DNA from: a virus
IMG/VR virus record: IMGVR_UViG_3300018432_000006
Coordinates: 1-56,772 of that record
Length of the DNA: 56,772 nt
Reading direction: 5' to 3' (one strand)
Of this stretch, positions 124-12,601 are shown one piece after another. The first letter of the stretch is position 1, and every line of letters starts with the position of its first letter. A program made the position numbers and the translations under genes. The notes beneath the pieces are model-generated. The model was not told where the DNA came from. It saw nothing but the letters and a program-made list of their open reading frames with translations, and made no database searches.

Positions 124-255
124 CTTGCAGACGACGATGACGTCATCTTCCGTTCCGGGTTCGGTGTAGGCGCTGGTGATCTTGTGGTCGAGCATCAGGC
201 GCTCGACGTCGATGCGTGGTGTGGGCGACGGGACGAACAGGGGTGCGTCTGTCAT
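1..255 (-). CDS. Hypothetical protein, N-terminal part (gene crosses the contig join)
   Basis: The start codon is ATG at 253-255, in ATGA overlap with the stop of the gene before it. The frame runs leftward off base 1 and continues at 56649 down to its stop at 56434, giving a 156-residue protein once the map is closed. The protein begins MTDAPLFVPS and has a CKC motif near residue 43. I recognise no family. It belongs to the tightly overlapping leftward operon, and its continuity is the main evidence that the molecule is circular or concatemeric. Confidence 0.85.
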   Translation of the reverse strand, partial: MTDAPLFVPSPTPRIDVERLMLDHKITSAYTEPGTEDDVIVVCKCKLRFDLGESHTLHVFGVLRDASASTTELTNTVRALPASTQ

Positions 256-728
256 GGGGTGCCTTCCTGGGGGTGATCGAACGTCCAATGCGGCCGGATG
301 CCTGGTTCGGCGCTGCCGATGAGCTGGATGATGTCGCCCGGTCGTCGGTCGGGGCGCGCCTCGTGCTCCGGGCACGGCTGCCAGGGGATGGCCTTGACGC
401 CGTCGACCAGGTGCCGGAGCAGCATGTACCCGTACCCGGGGGGTGGCACCGCGCAGCCGTCGTCGGTGGTCTTCACCGGTACCCACAGCTCGACGCTGCT
501 GTTGCGTGGGACGACGTCGGCGGCTGCCTTGTCTCCGATGCTTAGGTCGACGGCGTAGTGCGCGAGCCACTGGAATGGGTCGCCTAGCCCGTCGATCCGT
601 GTCTCGAACACGGCGTCCGCTTTCAAGCGCACGGGCACCGCGGTGTCGGTGCGGACCACGGCGAGCCTGACGCACCCGCAGTCGGTCACCTCGTTGATGC
701 GCAGGTGGCATTCGGCGTCGATGTTCAT
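252..728 (-). CDS. Hypothetical protein, 158 aa
   Basis: The start is the ATG at 726-728, preceded by GGAGGACAGCCC, a clear ribosome-binding site; a longer in-frame extension to 842 is Arg-rich and overlaps the gene before it, so it was rejected. The protein starts MNIDAECHLRINEV and carries Cys residues at CGC and PC motifs. ATGA overlaps at both ends place it in the leftward operon. No family is recognised. Confidence 0.8.
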   Translation of the reverse strand: MNIDAECHLRINEVTDCGCVRLAVVRTDTAVPVRLKADAVFETRIDGLGDPFQWLAHYAVDLSIGDKAAADVVPRNSSVELWVPVKTTDDGCAVPPPGYGYMLLRHLVDGVKAIPWQPCPEHEARPDRRPGDIIQLIGSAEPGIRPHWTFDHPQEGTP

Positions 729-994
729 GGGCTGTCCTCCGGGTCTATGAGACAGGAGATCTGCACTGCGGTGTGGCCTGGTAGTCGGTCGATGTGCACA
801 CCGTCGATGTCGTCGCCGGCGACGTTGAACGTGGCGACCCATTCGTGGGTCCCCTTCGCGTTCTGCCCGATGTAGGACACCTCGGCGGCATCGATGAGCT
901 GGCCATTGACCCTGACGCGGACACCTTCGGGGCGTGGTGGCCCTCCGTTGAGCATGGCGCGGGCGAGGCGTGCTAGCGCTTCGTCGGGGCTCAT
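725..994 (-). CDS. Hypothetical protein, 89 aa
   Basis: It starts MSPDEALARLARAML at the ATG of 992-994, which overlaps the stop codon of the gene before it; an ATG 15 bases upstream is possible. The central part (VRVRVNGQLIDAAEVSYIG) is predicted to be beta-rich. It overlaps both neighbours by four bases and is probably translated by coupling. Function unknown. Confidence 0.8.
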   Translation of the reverse strand: MSPDEALARLARAMLNGGPPRPEGVRVRVNGQLIDAAEVSYIGQNAKGTHEWVATFNVAGDDIDGVHIDRLPGHTAVQISCLIDPEDSP

Positions 995-1470
995 GATGGT
1001 CTGGCCCATTGGTCGCGGTACGGGGTGACTCCGGTCTCTGCCTCGAACGTGCCGAAGTAGTGGCGGCTGGAGTGCGCGGGCTGGTAGGCGTCCTGGCACC
1101 GGTGGCCTGCCTTCGGCTCGAACGTCCGGGTGCCGTCTGCTACTCGCGTGAGCTGGTGATAGGCCATGTCGTCACCGCCCAGGATGAGCGACCTACCGGT
1201 GCGCCATGCTTCGACTCGGCAGTGCGGGGGGAGCCACGCCGTCAGGTCCTTCACGGTGTTCTGTCCGACTAGGCAGGCGTCGATCTTGATGTTCAGGAAC
1301 CCGTCGAAGTGCTCGCCGTCGGGGGTGTCGTGGGTGCCGGCGTGCATGAACGCGATGGCCCGTAGCGTCTGGTAGTCGGTCGTCTCCGGGGTGGGGGGCA
1401 CGCAGCCGCACGGGCGGGTCGTGGTGACCCGTACGAGCGCGGGCGCGTCGATCATGACGAACGTGCTCAT
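991..1470 (-). CDS. Hypothetical protein, 159 aa
   Basis: The start ATG at 1468-1470 overlaps the preceding gene's TGA. The first half (MSTFVMIDAPALVRV, then a CGCVPP segment) resembles the 158-residue neighbour at 252-728 in layout: a beta-rich start, a CGC motif, then a segment of the type FLNIKIDACLV. The two may be distant paralogues, but I see only pattern similarity. Function unknown. Confidence 0.8.
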   Translation of the reverse strand: MSTFVMIDAPALVRVTTTRPCGCVPPTPETTDYQTLRAIAFMHAGTHDTPDGEHFDGFLNIKIDACLVGQNTVKDLTAWLPPHCRVEAWRTGRSLILGGDDMAYHQLTRVADGTRTFEPKAGHRCQDAYQPAHSSRHYFGTFEAETGVTPYRDQWARPS

Positions 1471-1673
1471 GACGGGGTGCTCCGTAGTCCCTGGGCGAAG
1501 CCGTCGAGCAGCGCGACGACTTCCTCTCTGGTGAACAGCTTGTCGGCGGGGAGCACCGCGGCGGTCTGCCGTGCCAGGGCCTCGATGTGCGCTGCGGCGC
1601 CTTCCCGCATGGCGCGCTTGATGGCACGGTCCTTCGTGGTGGCGAAGTCGATGGGGCCGTCGAAGATGCTCAC
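1467..1673 (-). CDS. Hypothetical protein, 68 aa
   Basis: GTG start at 1671-1673 in GTGA overlap with the gene before it. The protein is short and mostly helical (VSIFDGPIDFATTKDRAIKR), with acidic and basic residues mixed and no Cys or membrane segment. The segment LFTREEVVALLDGFAQG looks like an amphipathic helix pair. No family recognised. Confidence 0.75.
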   Translation of the reverse strand: MSIFDGPIDFATTKDRAIKRAMREGAAAHIEALARQTAAVLPADKLFTREEVVALLDGFAQGLRSTPS

Positions 1674-2554
1674 GGGACCACGACCATGTCGATGTCGTCG
1701 GGGCTGAGGTAGAGCGCCGGCGCGTGCATGTCGTGCACGTCCCTGCCGACGCGGACCCACAGCCGATAGCCGTGGTCATGGTCGAGCGTCGCGACAACGC
1801 CTGTCTCTCCCTCGAACGTGTCGCCGTTCGTTCCGATGGTGACGATGTGCCCGCGCTGGAACCCGCCGATGTGCGGGCCGTTCGCGTTGCAGCGCCGCTG
1901 CGCGTCCGCGAGCTTGTTGGCCACCAGGCGCTGCACGGTCTCTGTCAGCGTCTCGCCGTTCTGGTCGGCTACGTGCTCGCCTAGTTGCTCCGCAAGCCAG
2001 TGCGAGAGGTTCGTTGCTTCGTCGTGGACCTGTTGCAGGTGCTGCTCTGTCCGCTCGCTAGGGGGGGCGGAACACGGTGCGGCTGATGGCAGCGGGTCGG
2101 GGTGCAGCGGTACGGGCAGCTCGCTGGGGTCGACTCCCTGCACGATGAGGTCTTCACGGACGGACGCGAGGCGCCGGCCTTCCTCCGCGAGCGCCTGGCG
2201 GTCCGTCTCCGTGTCGTGCTTGGCGAAGATGTGCCAGACCAGGCCGGCCGCTGACTCGATGTGGTCGACAGATCCGCGGGTCGGCCCGGAGAGGATGTGG
2301 AAGGTCGGCACGACGGCGGTACCGATGTGATAGACGTCGTCAGGCAGCGGGTGGCCGGTGCCGACGACGGTGACAGCCCTGGTCGCGTGACCGGCCCATG
2401 GGCCGGCGTCCGGTCCCTCTTCGAGCGTCCACACCTCGACGAGATCCCCGGGCTTGCGCTTGTACTCGCGAGCTGCGACGTGCACGACGGCGCCGGCGCC
2501 GACCTTGTGCCAGGCGTCGTCGACGGGGACTTCCCACCGTAGGACTCGATGCAT
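1670..2554 (-). CDS. DUF7352-like N-terminal domain protein, 294 aa
   Basis: Starts MHRVLRWEVPVDDAWH at the ATG of 2552-2554 after the ribosome-binding site GGAGAAACACCCC; the longer frame to 2641 lacks one. Residues 1-75 resemble a small phage domain I know as DUF7352 (a VPVDD-WH start and a VEVWTLEEG-like strand), which is recalled and not searched. The middle is a helical region with paired charges, and the end is a beta-rich domain (FEGETGVVATLDHDHGYRLW), possibly SH3-like. It heads a run of overlapping genes, with a 91-base gap upstream. Confidence 0.8.
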   Translation of the reverse strand: MHRVLRWEVPVDDAWHKVGAGAVVHVAAREYKRKPGDLVEVWTLEEGPDAGPWAGHATRAVTVVGTGHPLPDDVYHIGTAVVPTFHILSGPTRGSVDHIESAAGLVWHIFAKHDTETDRQALAEEGRRLASVREDLIVQGVDPSELPVPLHPDPLPSAAPCSAPPSERTEQHLQQVHDEATNLSHWLAEQLGEHVADQNGETLTETVQRLVANKLADAQRRCNANGPHIGGFQRGHIVTIGTNGDTFEGETGVVATLDHDHGYRLWVRVGRDVHDMHAPALYLSPDDIDMVVVP

Positions 2555-2580
2555 GGGGTGTTTCTCCTGTTCGTGATTCG

Positions 2581-2594
2581 GGATTCCGGAATCC
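2581..2594. promoter_or_regulatory. 14-bp perfect palindrome upstream of the 294-aa gene
   Basis: GGATTCCGGAATCC reads the same on both strands and lies in the 91-base gap between two leftward genes, 27 bases before the start codon at 2554. It could bind a dimeric regulator. No convincing -35/-10 pair was found in the gap. Confidence 0.45.
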
Positions 2595-2645
2595 GGAAGG
2601 CTTACTGACCAGTAGTTGATATGGGGGTACAGCGAGCGCACGGCG

Positions 2646-2846
2646 TCAGGCGATGCCGTTCGGTCGGTACGGGTTGGCGTGCATGGGGTTCAGCGTGATC
2701 GCGGTCATGCCGACACCGTCACCCTTAGCGGCTCCCTCTTCCCAGGATTGCGCCAGAGCCTCGCCCATCTCACGTCGCGCCTCCGTGGCGTCGCCGTGAA
2801 CTAGAGCGTTGTGGATGCGCGCCAGCACCGCTTCCACGTCGATCAC
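2646..2846 (-). CDS. Hypothetical protein, 66 aa
   Basis: ATG start at 2844-2846 overlapping the previous stop. The protein is an N-terminal helix pair (MIDVEAVLARIHNALV, EARREMGEALAQSWEEG) followed by a short polar tail ending NPYRPNGIA. It has no recognisable domain. Confidence 0.75.
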   Translation of the reverse strand: MIDVEAVLARIHNALVHGDATEARREMGEALAQSWEEGAAKGDGVGMTAITLNPMHANPYRPNGIA

Positions 2847-3277
2847 GATGGGTCTCCGATGGGGTGGTCGGTGGTGGCACGCCGGCGCTTGATCTTGCCC
2901 AGCGTGCGGACGGCGTCGGAGGTGGGGTGCTCGACGTCGCGCATGCCGTGTTCAGCGGCCTCGCGGCCGGTCGTGAACAGCTCGACGTCGGTGGTGTAGT
3001 TGTGGATCTCGTCGCCGTCGTCGGGGCTGATGTCGCCTCCGGAGATCGCGAGGCGGAGCGCGAGACTGTGGGTCATGTCGTGGCAGCCGGCCCAACCGGC
3101 GCACGCGCGTCCGTTCACCTGGTGGCACAGGAAAACGGCGGTCGGTTGAGACCAGGTGGTCTCGTCGTAGTGCGCGAGCTTGGCGTATTCGTCGGGGTGC
3201 CAGACACCGGACGGCACGTCGCGACGGTAGGGGCACGACGCGCACGGGCGGGGCGCCGGCGGCAGGATCCGGCTCAC
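2843..3277 (-). CDS. DUF6283 family protein, 144 aa
   Basis: GTG start in GTGA overlap. The arrangement CASCPYRRDVPSGVW, then HPDEYAKL, LFLCHQ-like FLCHQ, and C-GW-GCHD is the pattern of the DUF6283 family found in actinobacteria and their phages. The conserved Cys and His residues suggest a metal site. The C-terminal third is polar and ends in a basic KIKRRRATT segment. The biochemical role of the family is unknown to me. Confidence 0.85.
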   Translation of the reverse strand: MSRILPPAPRPCASCPYRRDVPSGVWHPDEYAKLAHYDETTWSQPTAVFLCHQVNGRACAGWAGCHDMTHSLALRLAISGGDISPDDGDEIHNYTTDVELFTTGREAAEHGMRDVEHPTSDAVRTLGKIKRRRATTDHPIGDPS

Positions 3278-3540
3278 GTGTTCGGGCTCTCGCTGGTGCC
3301 GTTCAGGCGCGCTATCTCCTGACCGATGCGCTCTGCAATGCCGGTCTCGCCCTGCATGGCCATGCGCTGCGCCCAGAGCAGGGCTCGCGCCTGAATCTCT
3401 GGCATGACCGCCGCGACGATGTGCAGAGCCGCCGTGTTCGGCTCGCCCAGTACCCGTCCGGGGAGCTGGCTTACCGCCGTCTCGATCTTCGTGACCAGTT
3501 CGGCGGGCAGGTCTTCCGGTCGCATCGTGGTGTGGGTCAT
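3274..3540 (-). CDS. Hypothetical protein, 88 aa
   Basis: ATG start overlapping the previous stop. The protein is predicted all-helical (LPAELVTKIETAVSQL, ALLWAQRMAMQGETGI). Several small helical proteins of similar size in this operon (6756-7022, 7306-7668) share the pattern of an alanine-rich helix followed by an aromatic-containing helix, so they may be distantly related. Function unknown. Confidence 0.78.
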   Translation of the reverse strand: MTHTTMRPEDLPAELVTKIETAVSQLPGRVLGEPNTAALHIVAAVMPEIQARALLWAQRMAMQGETGIAERIGQEIARLNGTSESPNT

Positions 3541-3851
3541 GTTGGTTGCTCTCCCAGTAGTCGGGCCACGATCTCGGTGGCGATGGTGTGTGTGTCGATC
3601 TCGTCGTCTCGTGCGTTCCAGGTCCCGGGGCGGACCTGTTCGTACGTGCCGGGTGCGTAGCCCATCAGCGACTCATCGATGATGGTGGCGATGGCGTCGA
3701 CGGCGAGCGCCGCGGTGAACTGGGCGTGCACCGCGGCGCCCATGTCGCGGTAGATCTGTTGGCCGGTGGGGCTCATGTCCTCCCACCGGTTCAGGTCGTG
3801 GACGTCCGCGATGGTCTTCGTGATCGCGTCGACGTCGAGTGGCGCGGTCAC
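3537..3851 (-). CDS. Hypothetical protein, 104 aa
   Basis: The GTG at 3849-3851 was chosen because it overlaps the stop of the methyltransferase gene upstream; the frame is open to 3902 but that extension is Arg-rich. The protein is helical with an acidic start (VTAPLDVDAITK). No family recognised. Confidence 0.75.
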   Translation of the reverse strand: MTAPLDVDAITKTIADVHDLNRWEDMSPTGQQIYRDMGAAVHAQFTAALAVDAIATIIDESLMGYAPGTYEQVRPGTWNARDDEIDTHTIATEIVARLLGEQPT

Positions 3852-4354
3852 GTCCGCGACCACCAGAACCGGGCGAGCACGGACGCGATGGCGGACGGGC
3901 ATGGCCCCATCAGCTCGCGCAGCTCGTCGGCGTTCCAGTGGCGTACGTGCCGCTCGTAAGGGTTGCCGAACGTCGCCCCCTGTTCCTTGTGCAGGACGGG
4001 CACGGACAACAGCAGGTGCCCGGCGTTGGCCTTGATGTTCGCGATGACTTGCCGGCCGTCTTCCTCGGGCATGTGTTCGAGGACGTCGCCCATGATGACG
4101 GTGTAGTCACCGCGCGGGAACTGGAACTCGCGGATGTCTCCGATGGTGATCGCGTCGTACTTCGTGAGCAGGTTGAACCGGTCGACGTACGGTTCCCACG
4201 CCTCGATGCCGTGGAAGGCGGTGTGCGGCAGCAGGGGGCGCAGCAGGTCGGCGTAGGTGCCTTCCCCGGGGCCGATGTCGAGGATGAGGCGGGGCTTGGC
4301 TGCCGTGACGTGCTTGGCTGCCCAGACGCGGTTTTGCTTGGCGGAGAACGGCAT
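3848..4354 (-). CDS. Class I SAM-dependent methyltransferase, 168 aa
   Basis: Residues 25-32 (LDIGPGEG) form the glycine-rich motif I that binds S-adenosylmethionine in Rossmann-fold methyltransferases. An acidic residue ends the next strand (FHGIEAWEP), and VIMGDVLEHMPEEDG is the motif IV/post-IV region typical of small-molecule and ubiquinone-type methyltransferases. At 168 residues it is a minimal catalytic domain without a DNA target-recognition region, so a DNA methylase is not favoured. The substrate is unknown. Its stop overlaps the next gene in the leftward operon. Confidence 0.88.
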   Translation of the reverse strand: MPFSAKQNRVWAAKHVTAAKPRLILDIGPGEGTYADLLRPLLPHTAFHGIEAWEPYVDRFNLLTKYDAITIGDIREFQFPRGDYTVIMGDVLEHMPEEDGRQVIANIKANAGHLLLSVPVLHKEQGATFGNPYERHVRHWNADELRELMGPCPSAIASVLARFWWSRT

Positions 4355-4364
4355 GTGTGGCCTC

Positions 4365-4766
4365 TCAGTGGGTGGTGGTGGGCGAGCCGGGGACCTGACC
4401 CATGGTGACGGTGTGCTCGATGATGTTCTCGCCACGCACGGGGCGACCGGCGCACGACTCGTGCACGTAGACGTTCAGACGTGAGTGGTAGATCCACCGC
4501 TGTCCGGCCGTGAACGGGTTGGGGCAGTTATCGCACGGGCCGTCGGGCGTGTTGGCCGCGTCGGCGGTGCGCTGGGCGCCTCGCTCGCACTCGCGGCACC
4601 GGCGGTCGTCGGGGTCGGCGTTCACCCATAGGTGGTCGCGGCCGGTCGGGAACCAGGTGCCGCAGTAGGCGTATGAGCCCATGAGCGACGGCCGTGATGG
4701 GTCGGCGGCGTGCGCGGGGCCGTACTTCACGGGGTACCGGGTACCGCGCTTGCGCCATCTCGTCAT
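4365..4766 (-). CDS. Putative zinc-binding protein, 133 aa
   Basis: The ATG at 4764-4766 overlaps the stop of a 39-residue gene; an ATG six bases upstream (MDMTRW) is also in frame. The protein has a CREC pair, then CDNCPNPF and a later HESC, which could bind one or two zinc ions. The segment WIYHSRLNVYVHESC with its two His residues resembles small zinc-ribbon phage proteins. No function can be assigned. Confidence 0.78.
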   Translation of the reverse strand: MTRWRKRGTRYPVKYGPAHAADPSRPSLMGSYAYCGTWFPTGRDHLWVNADPDDRRCRECERGAQRTADAANTPDGPCDNCPNPFTAGQRWIYHSRLNVYVHESCAGRPVRGENIIEHTVTMGQVPGSPTTTH

Positions 4767-4882
4767 GTCCATGCCCCCGTCTCTTCGTCGTACTCGTAGC
4801 CCATGTTGCCCAGCAGCTCTTCGGCGGCGTTCAGCTTGTGCACGTCGGTGCGCCAGTACTCGGCTAGCTCTTCGTCGGTCAT
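4763..4882 (-). CDS. Small acidic protein, 39 aa
   Basis: The reading frame MTDEELAEYWRTDVHKL to GAWT is flanked by ATGA overlaps with the genes on both sides, which is good evidence that it is translated. The protein is strongly acidic and probably a single helix. Nothing is known of its function. Confidence 0.72.
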   Translation of the reverse strand: MTDEELAEYWRTDVHKLNAAEELLGNMGYEYDEETGAWT

Positions 4883-5175
4883 GAGTCCCCCACGATGCTC
4901 TTGCGCAGCTCTTCGGCCTGGTGGTGCACAAGATCTCCGATGGGCAGCACGTCGACGCCGCAGGTGCAGTAGCGGGTGAGCCCGTGGGGGCCGACGACGA
5001 GTTGGTGCTTCTCCAGCACGGTCGCCATGCTGACGCCGTTCACGCCGGCACCGAGGATGATCCGGACCATGTAGGCGATTTCTTCCCGGGTGACGTTGGA
5101 CATGAAGATGCCCTGTGCCACGTCGAAGAGGCTGACGGCGTCGACGGCGCGTTCTTCCGCTGGCGTGTTCGTCAT
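4879..5175 (-). CDS. Hypothetical protein, 98 aa
   Basis: ATG start in overlap with the stop of the preceding gene. The first 60 residues are predicted helical; the end has a CTCG motif (RYCTCGVDVLP) and a His pair, a possible half zinc site. No family recognised. Confidence 0.78.
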   Translation of the reverse strand: MTNTPAEERAVDAVSLFDVAQGIFMSNVTREEIAYMVRIILGAGVNGVSMATVLEKHQLVVGPHGLTRYCTCGVDVLPIGDLVHHQAEELRKSIVGDS

Positions 5176-5372
5176 GGCTTCCTGATCCCAGCGTCGACGG
5201 TTTCGAGGTCAGTGAGGCGCGTCGCCTTCGCGGTGCTGTCGCCCCGGTACAGGACGTGCACGATGCCGGTGTCGAGCGCGTGCACGGACGTGATGCGCCC
5301 GTCTTCCGGGCGCGCTTCGGGGTGCGCCCGGTAGACGACGCCGCGCCCCACGGTGGCCTGTTCCGGGCTCAC
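5172..5372 (-). CDS. Hypothetical protein, 66 aa
   Basis: GTG start (GTGA overlap with the gene upstream). A small beta-rich protein (GRGVVYRAHPEARPEDG, TGIVHVLYRGD) that could form an SH3-like or small barrel fold, similar to many phage accessory proteins. No family recognised. Confidence 0.75.
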   Translation of the reverse strand: MSPEQATVGRGVVYRAHPEARPEDGRITSVHALDTGIVHVLYRGDSTAKATRLTDLETVDAGIRKP

Positions 5373-5737
5373 GCGTCCGCCAGTGCGGCGATCATGGCGC
5401 GCTGCTCCGCGTCGATCTTGGCCAGGTCGATCCCGAAGTACTTCGCCAGGATCTGGTTCACCGGCGTTGTCACCGGCATCAACTGCTCTTCGCGGTATCC
5501 CTTGATCTCGCGGTACTGCGCGAGGATGTAGCCGCTCTCGTCGAGGAATCGCCCGATGGCCTGGGCTTCCTCGATGATGGCCGACTGCCGGGTGTGCTCC
5601 GGGTACAGGTCTTCGGCCGGCGCCGGCGGGGTGTTCGGGCAGGGCTCGTTGTGGCCACCGCCGTTCCCGTGACGCTCGTGCACCAGGCCATGGTTCCCGT
5701 TCGTGCCCCCGCAGCGGGTGCAGATGCTGCTGTTCAT
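5369..5737 (-). CDS. Hypothetical protein with Cys/His-rich N-terminus, 122 aa
   Basis: First gene after the leftward promoter at 5758-5801. The ATG at 5735-5737 follows AAGGGAGACACC. Residues 5-30 (CTRCGG ... HGLVHERH ... EPC) look like a zinc-binding knuckle; the rest is helical. An in-frame ATG lies right at the predicted transcription start (MSEQIRKGDT-), so a leaderless longer form is possible but is not supported at most other copies of this promoter. Confidence 0.78.
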   Translation of the reverse strand: MNSSICTRCGGTNGNHGLVHERHGNGGGHNEPCPNTPPAPAEDLYPEHTRQSAIIEEAQAIGRFLDESGYILAQYREIKGYREEQLMPVTTPVNQILAKYFGIDLAKIDAEQRAMIAALADA

Positions 5738-5757
5738 GGTGTCTCCCTTACGAATCT

Positions 5758-5801
5758 GTTCTGACATGCACGACTCTACGCTTGACGGGGGCCTGGTGCA
5801 A
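5758..5801 (-). promoter_or_regulatory. Leftward phage promoter, GTCAGAAC family
   Basis: On the minus strand: TTGCAC (5796-5801), 17-base spacer, TAGAGT (5773-5778), then GCATGTCAGAAC ending at 5758. It sits in the 73-base gap before the 122-aa gene and matches the shared promoter pattern seen at a dozen other sites. Confidence 0.85.
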
Positions 5802-5810
5802 CGCCGTTCC

Positions 5811-6176
5811 TCAGAACAAGGTGTCCTGCACGGGCATGTCATCGAGCCAGGACCCGGTGTCGCCGTAATCGGTCTCGTCGAGATCCCAGACTTCCCCGGT
5901 GCTGATGTCGGTGACCTGGTCGAGCCGGCAGCCGGGGCACCGCTGCACCAGGAAGCGCCGGCGCGGGAACCCGGTGGCGCCGTCGGGCATCAGGGTTCCG
6001 ACGGCGCGCATGTCTGTGTCGCGGATCCATCCGCATCCGGTGCATGCCCATTGGTCGTCGGTGACGTGGAAGACGAGCGACCCGCGGCCGGCGAACCCGC
6101 CTTCGTCGGTCCATGGTGACCACTGCACGACCTGTCCATCCCAGAGGGGCGGCAGGTCGTGCAGTCGGTCGGTCAT
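5811..6176 (-). CDS. Putative zinc-binding protein, 121 aa
   Basis: Two CxxC pairs, CTGC near residue 45 and CPGC near residue 81, probably form a zinc ribbon. The start MTDRLHDLPPLWDGQ is the first ATG after the stop of the upstream gene. The end is acidic (DLDETDYGDTGSWLDD). It is the last gene before the promoter at 5758-5801. Function unknown. Confidence 0.8.
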   Translation of the reverse strand: MTDRLHDLPPLWDGQVVQWSPWTDEGGFAGRGSLVFHVTDDQWACTGCGWIRDTDMRAVGTLMPDGATGFPRRRFLVQRCPGCRLDQVTDISTGEVWDLDETDYGDTGSWLDDMPVQDTLF

Positions 6177-6181
6177 GGTCG

Positions 6182-6349
6182 TCAGGCTGCGTCGGTCTCG
6201 CGGGATGCGGCGGCGAGCTGGCGGGCTGCGTCGTCCCAGCGGATGCGCTGGGTGCGTGCGTGCTCGCTGACCAGCTCGACGATCTCTTCCCAGGGCATGG
6301 GGTCGAGTGCGGCGCGCAGTGTCACGAAGGTGCCCCGTCGGTCGGTCAT
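6182..6349 (-). CDS. Hypothetical protein, 55 aa
   Basis: The ATG at 6347-6349 overlaps the stop of the HIT gene. It is a short helical protein (WEEIVELVSEHARTQRIRW). No family recognised. Confidence 0.72.
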   Translation of the reverse strand: MTDRRGTFVTLRAALDPMPWEEIVELVSEHARTQRIRWDDAARQLAAASRETDAA

Positions 6350-6759
6350 GGGCGTTGCGCTCCTAGCTCGTCGGAGAGTTCCTGTGCTCGACGGCACCAG
6401 TGCGGCGCTGTCGGGTCGTCGCCGTAGAGGGTGCCCCAGGGAGTCATGAGGCCGTCGTCGACCGTGCGGGGTACGACGTGGATGTGTAGGTGGTCGATGG
6501 ACTGTGTCGCGGCGCGGCCGGCGCTTGTGATCAGGTTGAAGCTGTCGTATTGCCGGGCGTGCTGTGCGGCGCGGACGGCCGTCTGTGCGGTGATGATCGG
6601 GTCTGTTGCTGCGGTGGCGACGTGCTGTTTCGGGATGATCAGCACATGCCCATCAGTCACGGGCGTCAGGGGGACGAGCGCGATGGCGTCTCCCCGGTCG
6701 CGGACGATCCGCCCTGGGGCGGTGCCGTTGATGATCTGGCAGAACACGCACCCGGTCAC
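6346..6759 (-). CDS. HIT family hydrolase, 137 aa
   Basis: The catalytic signature HLHIHVVP lies at residues 90-97, giving the three histidines H90, H92 and H94 of the histidine-triad superfamily, nucleotide hydrolases or transferases. C4 and C7 (GCVFCQI) form the N-terminal metal-binding start common in bacterial HIT proteins. The length is normal for the family. GTG start in GTGA overlap. The substrate (a nucleoside phosphoramidate or dinucleotide) and its role during infection are unknown; phages rarely carry this family. Confidence 0.93.
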   Translation of the reverse strand: MTGCVFCQIINGTAPGRIVRDRGDAIALVPLTPVTDGHVLIIPKQHVATAATDPIITAQTAVRAAQHARQYDSFNLITSAGRAATQSIDHLHIHVVPRTVDDGLMTPWGTLYGDDPTAPHWCRRAQELSDELGAQRP

Positions 6760-7022
6760 AGCGCAGCTTCTTCCTGCGCCTGCATGCGCAGCTCGATCGC
6801 ATACTGTCCGACGGCGGCGACCGGGTCCCCGCCGCGGTGCTCAACAGCGCGCCCGTATGCCTGTTCCGCGACGATGGCCGCGCACTCCGGGAACGTGGCC
6901 GCGAGCGTCACGGCAGCCATGGCCACGGCCTCGTGACGGGTCAGACCTGGGGCGGCGCCCATCAGTGCGTCGGCGCCCAGCTCGATGACGTCGAGGGCGA
7001 TGGTCGTGGCCGCGGGGTTCAC
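6756..7022 (-). CDS. Hypothetical protein, 88 aa
   Basis: GTG start overlapping the upstream stop (7020-7022). Alanine-rich and helical (HEAVAMAAVTLAATF). No Cys or membrane segment strong enough to call. It sits between the HIT gene and a small membrane protein gene. Confidence 0.73.
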   Translation of the reverse strand: MNPAATTIALDVIELGADALMGAAPGLTRHEAVAMAAVTLAATFPECAAIVAEQAYGRAVEHRGGDPVAAVGQYAIELRMQAQEEAAL

Positions 7023-7309
7023 GGGGTGGTGTCCTTCCGTGAGTCGTTGATGATCCGCGCCAGAGCGCCCAGCGCGAGCAATGGCCACATGGGCGACTGC
7101 GCGAACCGGCGTGCGCCTTCCTGCGCTTCGCGTTCGTACTTGGCGCGCTGACGCTCGATGAAGTCGTTTCCCAGGTAGAAGGGCTGATCGTCTTCCTCGT
7201 AGTCGCGGACCATGCTCCGGGCGATGCTCCAGTTCGACCATCCGACGAACGCCGTGCCAATGACGCCGGCGACGTAGACGATGACGACGAGAGTGATGAG
7301 GGTGGTCAC
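7019..7309 (-). CDS. Small membrane protein of the SPxWPLL type, 96 aa
   Basis: An N-terminal transmembrane helix (residues 3-23, LITLVVIVYVAGVIGTAFVG) is followed by a charged helical stretch and a second weakly hydrophobic segment SPMWPLLALGALARI. The same plan recurs in the proteins at 16173-16478 and 23138-23410, so the phage carries three paralogues. GTG start in GTGA overlap. Function unknown; a membrane-associated accessory role is likely. Confidence 0.82.
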   Translation of the reverse strand: MTTLITLVVIVYVAGVIGTAFVGWSNWSIARSMVRDYEEDDQPFYLGNDFIERQRAKYEREAQEGARRFAQSPMWPLLALGALARIINDSRKDTTP

Positions 7310-7668
7310 GGGGCGCCTTCCTGGTGTGCTCGCTCGCGCAGCGTCTCCGCCAGCTTCAGGTTCAGCGCGGTGTCGATGCCCGCGTTCGCTTTCTGGGTGG
7401 CCTCCGCTGCGATGTGCAGCAGCAGCGACGCGCCGTAGACGCGCGTGGTCAGCGACCGGGCCAGCTCGACCTGTCGGTTGTAGTGCTCGACGCCGGCGTT
7501 CGCGATGATGCCGGCGCCGTACACCGGGAGCACCGCGGCGAGCACCTGGCGCATCTCGTCGCGGTCCGACCAGGTGAACGGGGCGTCGCCGTACAGCGCG
7601 CGCAGGCCGATCTCGACCAGCTCGTCAGGGACGTTCTCCGGCGCCATGACGGCGAGTTCGGCGCTCAT
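7306..7668 (-). CDS. Hypothetical protein, 120 aa
   Basis: ATG start at 7666-7668 overlapping the preceding stop. The protein is predicted to be all-helical, with LVEIGLRALYGD and DRDEMRQVLAAVLPVYGAG segments that recall the 88-aa proteins at 3274 and 6756. No function can be given. Confidence 0.76.
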   Translation of the reverse strand: MSAELAVMAPENVPDELVEIGLRALYGDAPFTWSDRDEMRQVLAAVLPVYGAGIIANAGVEHYNRQVELARSLTTRVYGASLLLHIAAEATQKANAGIDTALNLKLAETLRERAHQEGAP

Positions 7669-8057
7669 CGCGACTCATCCTCTTCGGGCTCCGGCTCGCC
7701 GGCGGGCAGCACGTAGGCGGCGATCTCCGTGGGGATCTCGGCGCCCAACGGGACGTGCACGACGTCGTATGCCCCGAACCGTGACGCGAGCTTCGCCGGG
7801 TTCCCGAAGTTCTCCGTGAGGTCTCGCCGCAACCAGTCGGAGTTAGATGAAACGTGGCTGGACAGGACTTCGCCCCACGGCGTCATGAGCACGCCGGCGA
7901 TGTCGCCCGCCCAGGGCTTGCCCAGCTCGACGACGTAGACGGTGGTGGAGATCCCGTTGCGCAGCCCGTCGCGTACCTCCGTGAGGGTCGCGTGGTCGAC
8001 GGTCGGCGCCTCGCGCGGGAGCGCGTCAGGGTTCGCGGTTCGGTTGGTTTCGGTCAT
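7665..8057 (-). CDS. Hypothetical protein, 130 aa
   Basis: ATG start at 8055-8057, four bases after the upstream stop. The middle contains mixed alpha/beta segments (ISTTVYVVELGKPW, GVLMTPWGEVLSS) and the C-terminus is acidic (EPEPEEDESR). No family recognised. Confidence 0.77.
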   Translation of the reverse strand: MTETNRTANPDALPREAPTVDHATLTEVRDGLRNGISTTVYVVELGKPWAGDIAGVLMTPWGEVLSSHVSSNSDWLRRDLTENFGNPAKLASRFGAYDVVHVPLGAEIPTEIAAYVLPAGEPEPEEDESR

Positions 8058-8060
8058 GGT

Positions 8061-8522
8061 TCATGCCTCCAGAATCGTCGCGTGCAGGTCGTCGTGCCGG
8101 TCGCGGAGCACCTTCCAGACGGCCGGTTCCCCCAGCGTCACGAACGCTTCCAGGATCGGTTCGGCAGCCATCCCGGATCCGTCGTAGAAGCACGCCTGCC
8201 CGTCGAGGTATGGGCACTCGCGCCGGTCGAGTTCCTGGTCTTCGCGCTGCGGTGAGTAGGCGTGATAGCCCAGGTCCATCCCCATCGGGAACAGGCGCGA
8301 GACCTTGGGGTCGGTGCCCTTTTCCCCGGGTACCCATCCGGTGGTCATGGTGAACTGAACGGCGCCCTTCGGCCCTCGAAGTAGGAACTTGATGTCCATG
8401 CCGTGAACGCCGTGGTTCCCTGCACGGTCGTTCCAACCGGGCTCGAAAACCACGGCGGTTTCGAACCCGTCGGCGTGTCTGCGCCAGGTCACGTTCGGGA
8501 TGATGCGGGTCAGGCCCGTCAT
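8061..8522 (-). CDS. Hypothetical protein, 153 aa
   Basis: ATG start at 8520-8522, three bases after the replication gene stop. Beta-rich centre (AVVFEPGWNDRAG, DIKFLLRGPKGAVQF) and a Cys pair (ECPYLDGQACFYDGSG). The pattern HAYSPQREDQELDRRECPYL is one I have seen in actinophage hypothetical proteins but cannot name. Confidence 0.8.
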   Translation of the reverse strand: MTGLTRIIPNVTWRRHADGFETAVVFEPGWNDRAGNHGVHGMDIKFLLRGPKGAVQFTMTTGWVPGEKGTDPKVSRLFPMGMDLGYHAYSPQREDQELDRRECPYLDGQACFYDGSGMAAEPILEAFVTLGEPAVWKVLRDRHDDLHATILEA

Positions 8523-8525
8523 GGT

Positions 8526-9740
8526 TCAGTGCTCGCTCTCTGCTGTCTCGCGTGCGGTCGTGGGATCGATGGTTGTGCCGATGGTCATGTCTCGTCGAGG
8601 TGTTCCGGCGGGGAGCTTGGCGCGAGCGGCCTGGAAGGCAGCGCGCCCCGTCCCCGTGGCACGGGCGGCGTGGGCGGCCTGCGCGGCGATGACCTGGTGC
8701 GCGCCGGCCCCCGGAGTCTCGATGCCCGCGAGGACGTGGCATGACGGGCAGCGCCGGATGTACTCCGTCCCGTCTTCCTCGTGCCCGGTGACCATGCGCG
8801 TGTTCCGGTCGCACCGGCCGCACCACTCCAGCTTGCCCAGACGGGGCGTGGCAGGGGCGTGCGGGCCCGCGAGCGCCGTGGTGCCGCTCTCGGACGCACG
8901 CCACTGCGTCAGGCGCTCTGAGAGCAGCCCGGAGCCGTGCAGGCTGACGATGAGCCCGTCGGGGTTCGTGGCCCCGGTGGCGTCGACGAGCCATGCCCGG
9001 AACCGCTGGGCTTCGTCGGGGTTGAGCATCATGGCGTCAAGGATGTCGGCGGGGTTCCTGGTCTGGCGAGCGCCGCCGGCGCGCGGAGCGTCGCCGTGAT
9101 CCCCCGCAGCAGGGGCAGCGCCGGGCGCGCTCGCGTTACGGGTCTGGGCGTTGCTGCTCGATGTCTCCACCGGGTCAGGGGCAGTAGACGCGCGGAGCGC
9201 GTCACTGCCTTCTGTGATGGGTGTTCGGGATAGGTCTTCTAATGGGACTGGGTTACCGGGACCCGGATAACCGGGTCCCGGAAACCCGGTTTCGGTGAGT
9301 TCCGGGTCCGGGTTGACCGGATCCGGGAAACCCGGTTCCGGTGCCTGGTCGTCTATCAGGTTGTCGTTGTCGTCGACGCGCACGGGGACGCCACCCTTGG
9401 GATAGCGCTTGAAATCTTCAGCCCACTGCGCGATGGGGTAATCAGCTACAGCGGTGCCCATCTTGAATTTGCCCGATGGCTTGCGGCGGCGCTCGACGCG
9501 GTAGTACCCGGCGGCTGCCAGCTCGCGGAGCGCGGCGGCGACAGCGTCGGCGCCTTCCTTGCGGCGCCGCCCCAGGTCCTTCGTCCGGACCACCCATCCC
9601 TCTTCGTGGGAGAGCAGTTCGGTCAGGATGCCCAGCGCTCGATACGAGATCCGGGTGTCGCGCACGGTCTGGTTCGTGATCTGCACGTAGTGGGTGCGCG
9701 TGACCTTGCGCAGTCCGCCGTCGGTTGCAGATTCATGCAT
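8526..9740 (-). CDS. Replication initiator-like HTH protein, 404 aa
   Basis: The N-terminal 100 residues (VTRTHYVQITNQTVRDTRIS ... LGILTELLSHEEGWVV) form a winged-helix domain of the kind at the start of plasmid and phage replication initiators. A Pro/Gly-rich linker follows, whose DNA (9251-9341) is a block of CCGGG palindromes, then a helical region and a zinc ribbon (CGRC ... CPSC). The start ATG at 9738-9740 follows CGGGAGTATCGAC, but that ribosome-binding site is inside a 7-bp hairpin, and a leader ORF ends five bases inside the gene. No other replication protein is visible, so it probably recruits the host replisome. The role is inferred. Confidence 0.75.
   Translation of the reverse strand: MHESATDGGLRKVTRTHYVQITNQTVRDTRISYRALGILTELLSHEEGWVVRTKDLGRRRKEGADAVAAALRELAAAGYYRVERRRKPSGKFKMGTAVADYPIAQWAEDFKRYPKGGVPVRVDDNDNLIDDQAPEPGFPDPVNPDPELTETGFPGPGYPGPGNPVPLEDLSRTPITEGSDALRASTAPDPVETSSSNAQTRNASAPGAAPAAGDHGDAPRAGGARQTRNPADILDAMMLNPDEAQRFRAWLVDATGATNPDGLIVSLHGSGLLSERLTQWRASESGTTALAGPHAPATPRLGKLEWCGRCDRNTRMVTGHEEDGTEYIRRCPSCHVLAGIETPGAGAHQVIAAQAAHAARATGTGRAAFQAARAKLPAGTPRRDMTIGTTIDPTTARETAESEH
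9251..9341. repeat. CCGGG palindrome cluster inside the initiator gene, candidate origin
   Basis: CCGGGACCCGG (9256-9266) and its exact reverse complement CCGGGTCCCGG (9271-9281) flank ATAA; further ACCCGG/CCGGGT units follow to 9341. In the protein this is a repetitive Pro-Gly linker. Lambda-type phages carry their origin inside the initiator gene in the same place, between DNA-binding and partner-binding domains, so these may be the binding sites of the protein they encode. Confidence 0.5.
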
Positions 9741-9963
9741 GTCGATACTCCCGTCTTCGGGAGTGACGTGGTCCGCGAATGTCCGGTATTGTCGTAGCCG
9801 GAACGTCCGCGAGTGCCGCATTCACTCGTGGTTCTGGGGCCGTCCCTCTGCCAGGGGGGACGGCCCTTTCTGTTGCCCGGAGCATATCCCATATGTCCGT
9901 CCGTGCCTGGTAGGCCGAACCCGCCTGGTGCGGGTGATGTTCCAGCGGCCTACGTTCTGACAT
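9733..9963 (-). CDS. Possible leaderless leader ORF coupled to the initiator gene, 76 aa
   Basis: An ATG at 9961-9963 lies at the predicted transcription start of the promoter at 9954-9997 and opens a 77-codon frame that ends TGA at 9733-9735, inside the sequence ATGCATGA where the first ATG starts the initiator gene. Translation through it would melt the hairpin that buries the initiator's ribosome-binding site. The protein (MSERRPLEHH...) is Arg/Pro-rich and may matter only as a translated leader. Actinobacteria translate leaderless mRNAs readily; that this one is translated is inference. Confidence 0.45.
   Translation of the reverse strand: MSERRPLEHHPHQAGSAYQARTDIWDMLRATERAVPPGRGTAPEPRVNAALADVPATTIPDIRGPRHSRRREYRHA
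9747..9764 (-). promoter_or_regulatory. Hairpin sequestering the initiator ribosome-binding site
   Basis: On the minus strand ACTCCCG-AAGA-CGGGAGT is a perfect 7-bp stem with a four-base loop; its right arm contains the GGGAG that should pair with 16S rRNA, six bases before the ATG at 9740. Initiator translation should therefore need the hairpin to be opened. Confidence 0.6.
9763..9792 (+). promoter_or_regulatory. Candidate antisense promoter
   Basis: GTGACG (9763-9768), an 18-base spacer and TATTGT (9787-9792) face rightward, against the initiator leader. The -10 is good and the -35 matches TTGACA at four of six bases. Start of transcription is expected near 9799. Confidence 0.45.
9798..9874 (+). 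ncRNA. Candidate countertranscribed antisense RNA, about 75 nt
   Basis: Downstream of the promoter above lie an 8-bp hairpin (9808-9815 with 9823-9830, loop CCGCATT) and then a 10-bp GC-rich terminator stem followed by TTTCTGTT. This two-stem-plus-terminator layout, fully complementary to the leader of the replication gene, is that of plasmid antisense copy-number regulators. No rightward gene ends here that would otherwise need a terminator. The RNA itself is a prediction. Confidence 0.5.
9837..9874 (+). terminator. Rightward intrinsic terminator in the initiator leader
   Basis: GGGCCGTCCC (9837-9846) pairs with GGGACGGCCC (9857-9866), followed by TTTCTGTT. The T-run is only on the plus strand, so it stops rightward transcripts and not the leftward initiator mRNA. 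Confidence 0.7.
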
Positions 9964-9997
9964 GCGCAACACTACAGGTGCGGACGACACGCCGCAA
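9954..9997 (-). promoter_or_regulatory. Leftward phage promoter of the initiator operon
   Basis: On the minus strand: TTGCGG (9992-9997), 17-base spacer, TAGTGT (9969-9974), then GCGCATGTCAGAAC ending at 9954. It is the only strong promoter upstream of the initiator gene and its predicted start coincides with the ATG of the leader ORF. Confidence 0.85.
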
Positions 9998-10021
9998 CGC
10001 GCCGCCGAAACCGGATAGGGG

Positions 10022-11968: not shown

Positions 11969-11989
11969 AGAACGAACCAGGGAGACACC

Positions 11990-12601
11990 ATGCGCACCAT
12001 CACCCGCACCACGAACCCCAACGGGACCTACCGCTACGAGATCGACGGCGACGTCATCTACAAGGCCAGCAAGGTTCTCTACACCCACGCGTCGAGCTAC
12101 ACCGTCGGAGAGACCAGCTCGCCGGTTCTGTTCCACAAGACGGAGGCCGCTGCCAGCCGCGCGCGCGGTTACCAGGGATGGGTCAAGACGGGCATGCAGG
12201 CCATCGAGGACGGCGACGCAGCCGCCACCGCTGACGCCGATGACGCGGCCTCGGACGGTCCCCGCCTGCGTGGTACGAAGGTCGAGTACCGGCACGCGGC
12301 CACGGGCCAGTGGCGTCCCGCCACGGTGACCGGGTACCGCGCCCACCAGGACACCTACATTCTCGCCACGGACCACGGCAGCGACGCCGCCGTTGCCGGG
12401 GACGTGCGCACGCCGAAGCCGCTGAAGGTGCCCCGCGTCCGCGCGAAGGTCGTGGCCAACGCCGGCCCGTCTCACCTCCGCGGCCGGCAGGGTCGCGTCG
12501 AGAGCAAGGGGCGGGGCGACGACGGCGAGCTGTATGTCACCGTCGAGTTCGACCCCGGTGTCACGTGGCCGTTCCTGGTTTCGGAACTGACCCTGGTTTG
12601 A
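11990..12601 (+). CDS. Hypothetical protein, 203 aa
   Basis: The start ATG follows GGGAGACACC. The first 65 residues (RTITRTTNPNGTYRYEIDGD ...) form a beta-rich domain; the rest contains two short SH3-like segments (GTKVEYRHAATGQWRPATV and LRGRQGRVESKGRGDDGEL) separated by an acidic linker. Single-gene unit with its own promoter and terminator. No family recognised. Confidence 0.82.
   Translation: MRTITRTTNPNGTYRYEIDGDVIYKASKVLYTHASSYTVGETSSPVLFHKTEAAASRARGYQGWVKTGMQAIEDGDAAATADADDAASDGPRLRGTKVEYRHAATGQWRPATVTGYRAHQDTYILATDHGSDAAVAGDVRTPKPLKVPRVRAKVVANAGPSHLRGRQGRVESKGRGDDGELYVTVEFDPGVTWPFLVSELTLV

Follow-up and report, generated by a model that had tools for sequence, protein, structure and literature searches.

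Switches in which an antisense RNA acts on a replication initiator are known from plasmids and from a few phages; we know of none in the kind of phage described here. In the plasmid groups IncFII (CopA/CopT) and ColIb-P9 (Inc/repY-repZ), a stem-loop antisense RNA is directed against the leader and the ribosome-binding site of Rep is hidden. In Actinobacteria, the ctRNA of the corynebacterial plasmid pGA1 is an antisense RNA opposite the leader of the replication initiator. In phage lambda, the OOP RNA of about 77 nt is transcribed away from the initiator gene O, which carries iterons within the gene; the OOP promoter lies just upstream of O and the target of the RNA is the upstream gene cII.

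For the staphylococcal plasmid pSK41 it was shown that RNAI, an RNA of about 83 nt with two stem-loops, has its complement in the rep leader, about 100 nt ahead of the translation start; it was proposed that RNAI, once bound, places the rep ribosome-binding site in a stem-loop while transcription continues, and the origin is located inside rep (PMC5703833). For the corynebacterial plasmid pCG1, mutation of the promoter of cgrI, likewise an antisense RNA opposite the initiator leader, raised the copy number (PMC13088423). Control of repL, the lytic replicon of phage P1, by an antisense RNA is the subject of Heinrich (1995), cited in PMC9948254, and a passage in PMC12112137 reports an antisense RNA over the dnaA 5' untranslated region of Bacillus subtilis. 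At the prophage origins of RedRock, Alma and other mycobacteriophages, replication depends on a non-coding RNA and no initiator protein is used (PMC7157519).

Here we describe the leader of a phage replication initiator gene that is probably under antisense-RNA control. The window is the complete 56,772-base record of an uncultured virus, an actinobacterial phage with tailed-phage genes for terminase, portal, major head protein, tape measure, an Erf-like annealing protein and an exonuclease.

The initiator gene

8526-9740, minus strand: replication initiator gene (ATG 9740-9738), from PHROG matches and tblastn relatives
9244-9343, no strand: palindromic iteron-like repeats within the initiator gene, predicted as probable origin

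The N-terminal part of the encoded protein matches PHROG replication-initiation and HTH families, and its C-terminal domain is shared with the tblastn relatives L017 and L002; neither RepA_N nor any other credible Pfam domain was matched by the initiator. Palindromic arrays are found in the junction region of the HTH and C-terminal parts in all three phages (window 9244-9343; L017 5032-5130; L002 5016-5115), those of L017 and L002 having four copies at the corresponding part of the gene and the sequence being different in each phage. They probably represent an intragenic origin with iterons. Because of the PHROG initiator and HTH families together with these intragenic palindromes in all three phages, the gene is called a replication initiator, and the resemblance of the arrays to the origins inside lambda gene O and pSK41 rep supports this label.

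The initiators are modular (window 8526-9740; L017 4708-5847; L002 4578-5801): homologous C-terminal parts are combined with differing N-terminal HTH domains, and the iteron type switches with the HTH domain. In the initiator relatives L174-L177, a window-like HTH domain is joined to another C-terminal part, and these four are without the leader. As a further observation on this genome, 26641-27123 on the plus strand matches the recombination directionality factor family phrog_478 and no integrase was recognised among the window proteins scanned, so that the lifestyle of the phage is uncertain.

An intrinsic terminator opposite the initiator leader

9836-9874, plus strand: predicted antisense intrinsic terminator, composed of the hairpin 1 stem (9836-9867) and a T-rich tail

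Hairpin 1 has 14 pairs, G.U pairs allowed, and is followed by TTTCTGTTG on the plus strand, exactly where the first-pass annotation had placed a rightward T-run terminator. It had also remarked that no nearby rightward gene needs such a terminator, and this holds: all gene-like ORFs from 252 to 9740 are leftward, which leaves the terminator without a gene to serve. On the sense strand, no T-run is present behind either the Shine-Dalgarno hairpin described below or hairpin 1.

This geometry is rare. A scan of both strands of the window for stems of at least 11 bp followed by at least five T in eight returned only two sites in 56.8 kb, namely 9836-9867 and the end of the gene at 11982-12601. In the L017 contig (26.8 kb covered), the antisense hairpin of the leader is the sole site at a stem length of at least 10 bp; in the L002 contig (50.6 kb covered) it is one of two sites, and the same is true for the L065 locus. 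Upstream of 107 related initiators, terminators were found five times on the antisense and never on the sense strand; the background rate is 0.006 per strand region of 250 nt. The four strong antisense terminators are situated at similar distances from the initiator start (window, 95 nt; L017, 99 nt; L002, 92 nt; L065, 90 nt). Hairpin 1 of the window and that of L017 are common by descent; the hairpins of L002 and L065 consist of other sequence.

A predicted antisense RNA

9763-9792, plus strand: predicted antisense promoter GTGACG-18-TATTGT, -10 at 9787-9792, weak consensus match
9799-9875, plus strand: predicted antisense RNA of about 77 nt with two stem-loops, fold of -46.2 kcal/mol
9807-9831, plus strand: hairpin 2, 9 bp with a 7-nt loop; its complement holds GAGUGA (plus-strand 9822-9827)

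An opposite-strand cassette of promoter, two hairpins and T-run terminator had been proposed for 9763-9874. The hairpins and the terminator are as described; the promoter is weaker, matching 8 of 12 consensus bases and going unreported in a consensus scan. A TANNNT at that distance has a shuffle p of 0.14 in the window alone. Suitably spaced TANNNT hexamers are present in all seven leader-bearing loci with per-locus shuffle p-values of 0.06-0.22, and combining the five lineages by Fisher's method, by our own arithmetic, gives p of about 0.01. Taken on its own, this sequence evidence for an antisense promoter is modest. The -10 hexamer is unchanged in L017, TATTGT shares its alignment columns with TAGCAT of L002, and in all three phages the hexamer is located at a fixed distance of 14 nt ahead of hairpin 2; the putative promoter of L002 has no recognisable -35.

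Composition largely explains why the antisense strand is the more stable one. Covariation in related genomes had been suggested as a check, and the stem changes between window and L017 do keep antisense pairing (five of five variable pairs, pairing on both strands being kept in one); this does not exceed the randomised expectation (p = 0.22). Overall, the strand asymmetry of stem pairing and the compensatory changes have the right direction and are not significant after controls. No Rfam family matched the whole window at gathering thresholds, and among the matches up to E = 10 in a permissive scan of 9700-10000 there was no plasmid antisense family.

The Shine-Dalgarno hairpin and a competing fold

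9747-9764, minus strand: hairpin concealing the initiator Shine-Dalgarno sequence (GGGAG, plus-strand 9748-9752), from predicted accessibility
9761-9766, minus strand: UCACUC, part of the concealing arm, with hairpin 2 as alternative partner

The ribosome-binding site of the initiator had been described as locked in a perfect 7-bp hairpin, and it is found exactly there, with ACTCCCG and CGGGAGT as arms and a 4-nt loop. The Shine-Dalgarno sequence has a predicted accessibility of 0.000-0.003 (window), 0.000-0.011 (L017) and 0.005-0.013 (L002), compared to a median of 0.43 over 49 window ORFs, a few of whose starts are perhaps miscalled. Since the three hairpins differ in sequence, it is the lock itself that is kept.

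The strand of hairpin 2 that is proximal to the mRNA 5' end complements the concealing arm, at matching positions in all three phages: GAGUGA/UCACUC in the window, GAGUGACG/CGUCACUC in L017 and GGAAGCCGGAA/UUCCGGCUUCC in L002. In shuffles of the Shine-Dalgarno half, the contiguous pairing of 6 nt in the window has p = 0.10, the 8 nt of L017 p = 0.002 and the 11 nt of L002 p < 0.0005 (0 of 2000 shuffles), values that concern a hypothesis formed on these same sequences, as the competing fold was noticed before testing. Forcing this fold costs 2.4 (window), 0.7 (L017) and 1.2 kcal/mol (L002) over the minimum energy; it is thus predicted to be nearly isoenergetic with the locked fold and can form in all three. 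Equilibrium folding nearly always predicts the locked state, with or without the antisense RNA, so that the open state must be kinetic, arising during transcription, or need a ribosome or a protein.

Conservation of the leader

9773-9815, no strand: 43-nt block identical in L017, holding the antisense -10

Window and L017 are 85% identical over the leader, though the HTH domains of their initiators differ, and L002 is alignable across the 43-nt block. The block is unlikely to be an operator of the initiator itself, since window and L017 differ in HTH domain and iterons. That the leader is kept through changes of DNA-binding domain and iterons suggests that it is a portable regulatory module. 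Conservation in homologous phages had been named as a check on the cassette; hairpins and terminator are kept in L017 and L002, the long leader ORF is missing from L017.

In the collections searched, L017 and L002 are the only homologous leaders. Neither phage nor plasmid records gave a real blastn match to the region or the leader; the pattern CCAGAACCACGAGTG occurs in 38 stretches of viral contigs, with a related context in L017 only, and GGCTACGACAATACCGG occurs in L017 only, besides two unrelated coding matches. Four further loci (L065, L068, L121 and L125) have the same two-hairpin layout before the initiator in leaders without sequence homology. Of these only L065 has the strong antisense terminator; L068 and L125 have no T-run directly behind the stem. 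Among the annotated phages and prophages examined, none carries a leader of the window type: the prophages of the named genomes L166-L171, and annotated phages of Arthrobacter and Streptomyces whose initiators are related, have no such leader or have an upstream gene that overlaps the initiator or directly adjoins it. Intergenic leaders do occur in Microbacterium Mementomorivirus and Gordonia Clawzvirus, where the hairpin is located ahead of the promoter or terminates the upstream gene.

Two side observations concern other leaders. In the initiator leader of L065, TAGTGACC and GGTCACTA (2845-2866) form an 8-bp inverted repeat around TATCTT, the sense -10 of that leader; the repeat is likely an operator. 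Three low-GC relatives (L069, L079 and L083) show, upstream of 3001, a Shine-Dalgarno hairpin before a 9-codon ORF whose stop overlaps the initiator start (in L069, hairpin ACTCCTT...AAGGAGT and ORF MTHTIVDAL), i.e., a leader-peptide design without antisense terminator.

Sense promoters and the 76-codon ORF

9733-9963, minus strand: 76-codon ORF (ATG 9963 to TGA 9735-9733), judged a by-product of the promoter motif
9962-9997, minus strand: distal promoter (leftward) TTGCGG-17-TAGTGT, belonging to a TGTCAGAAC-associated motif with 14 copies
9881-9886, minus strand: leader-proximal sense -10 TATGCT (start about 9875), from sequence comparison, no clear -35
5766(-), 9962(-), 10035(-), 10057(+), 11589(+), 11960(+), 12699(+), 15167(-), 15260(+), 17565(+), 21626(-), 22484(-), 22626(+), 55321(-): the 14 motif copies in the window

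The first-pass annotation had counted a 76-codon leader ORF, with a leftward promoter starting at its ATG, among the elements of the cassette. The overlap of ORF stop and initiator start is real, as ATGCATGA holds both the TGA of the ORF and the ATG of the initiator; the ATG of the ORF turns out to belong to the motif, roughly TTGC-N17-TATGGTTACGCATGTCAGAACGGAACG, that recurs mostly across the non-structural region. Most other copies are followed by a separate Shine-Dalgarno sequence and start codon, and reading the motif ATG as a start yields chance ORFs of 11-132 codons. As a gene, the 76-codon ORF was rejected: its GC3 is 0.55 (0.67-0.93 in genes), its codon log-likelihood is -0.23 (+0.04 to +0.44 in genes), and in the closest relative, L017, the leader frame stops inside the Shine-Dalgarno hairpin of the initiator; there the distal promoter serves a separate gene of 51 codons. 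The leader-proximal -10 has the counterparts TACGCT in L017 and TATGGT in L002. The TGTCAGAAC promoter/start-site motif is also present in the related contigs L017 and L041-L044, and the 14 copies are perhaps the operator of a phage-wide regulator.

Proposed mechanism and alternatives

Two elements are supported by the sequence and retained in L017 and L002, namely a small antisense RNA opposite the leader and sequestration of the ribosome-binding site; from the sequence we infer the two transcripts, their binding, and which way and to what end the control works. The leftward initiator mRNA would start at the distal promoter (about 9962) and/or the leader-proximal promoter (about 9875). Its counterpart, a rightward RNA about 77 nt long, would start near 9799, form two stem-loops and end at the terminator at 9836-9867; the 5' portion of the leader is its complement. 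In the mRNA, the initiator Shine-Dalgarno sequence would be shut in the hairpin 9747-9764 and freed when the concealing arm pairs with the GAGUGA strand of hairpin 2. Antisense RNA over hairpins 1 and 2 would capture this strand, so that the lock stays shut and initiator synthesis is off; as hairpin 2 lies within the antisense-covered region, binding would take away the competing partner. A rise in genome copies would raise the antisense RNA as well, and in this way the loop would hold back replication initiation.

That the structured leader acts on the sense strand only, stabilising the initiator mRNA or being bound by a protein, is unlikely. The antisense promoter and the T-run would then be by-products of an A-rich mRNA 5' end (AACAGAAA) and of inverted repeats, and it fits that hairpin 1 is located just behind an A-rich stretch and a plausible sense start in seven of seven leader-bearing loci, that in L065, L068 and L125 the sense strand folds at least as well as the antisense strand relative to shuffles, and that the T-run is wanting behind the stems of L068 and L125. 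Against this reading, the strong terminator geometry, otherwise very rare in these genomes, is confined to the antisense strand (5 versus 0) and keeps a fixed distance. Where the antisense stems of window and L017 have G.U pairs, their sense stems have A.C mismatches. Insulation of the initiator region from stray transcription by a rightward terminator, without a dedicated antisense RNA, has very little probability: terminators can be protective, but the absence of rightward gene-like ORFs over this region and the conserved -10 hexamer at its fixed spacing from hairpin 2 (window, L017, L002) speak against it.

An arrangement of the IncFII/ColIb type appears improbable; in it, translation of a short leader peptide would open the Shine-Dalgarno hairpin (translational coupling), and the antisense RNA would block this translation. 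A ribosome placed over the 5' arm raises the computed Shine-Dalgarno accessibility from 0.002 to 0.41, and window and L017 share a frame of 30 and 24 codons, respectively, from a GTG in hairpin 2 to the initiator start. Moreover, L065, L068 and L121 have ORFs of 21-29 codons with a stop overlapping the initiator ATGA, a plausible Shine-Dalgarno sequence for the short ORF lies within hairpin 2 in L065 and L068, and the distal promoter of the window could yield a leaderless mRNA beginning at AUG. Against this, the composition of the 76-codon ORF is that of non-coding DNA and L017 does not conserve it, the GTG of window and L017 has no Shine-Dalgarno sequence, L002 has no usable leader start, and stop/start overlaps arise easily by chance because any start that reads ATGA contains a TGA in the +1 frame. 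For the window, a leader peptide with a leaderless or a GTG start has no strong argument in its favour.

Antisense control of the initiator leader is thus retained as the probable reading. A wider proposal is tentative and stands somewhat below even chances: that a copy-number-sensing antisense RNA and a two-state leader control lytic replication in a group of uncultured tailed actinophages, that they were kept through swaps of DNA-binding domain and iterons, and that comparable cassettes arose more than once (L065; perhaps L068, L121 and L125). Should this hold, the dose of a phage initiator would be set by a copy-sensing RNA of plasmid style. It could then be tested whether phages cap their replication as plasmids do, and actinobacterial genetics, where few such elements are characterised, would gain a defined antisense-RNA element.

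Comparison with described systems

The first-pass annotation had stated that finding such control on a phage initiator would be new to it, which overstates the case given the precedent of P1 repL and the position of lambda OOP beside gene O. P1 repL is a phage initiator under antisense-RNA control; initiator and host differ from those of the window. Unlike OOP, the predicted RNA of the window would target the non-coding leader of the initiator itself. At the RedRock and Alma origins the RNA is needed for replication, whereas the RNA predicted here would oppose an initiator gene. The predicted position opposite an initiator leader in Actinobacteria is shared with pGA1 and pCG1, but these are rolling-circle plasmids and the window matches no Rfam plasmid antisense family. 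The translated leader peptide that defines IncFII and ColIb-P9 is unsupported in the window, and unlike in the attenuation systems of pT181 and pIP501, where antisense RNA induces such a structure before rep, there is no sense-strand intrinsic terminator before the initiator.

By analogy, the locus would work most like RNAI-rep of pSK41, a RepA_N plasmid. The window is not filed as a member of this type, since it has no sequence kinship to it and an initiator that is not related to RepA_N; the host is actinobacterial and the element is a tailed phage. The likeness lies in the arrangement: a predicted antisense RNA of about 77 nt with two stem-loops is situated 59-135 nt upstream of the initiator, the ribosome-binding site is placed, in silico, in a stem-loop that is tied to the antisense target region, and repeats predicted to be iterons are located inside the initiator gene.
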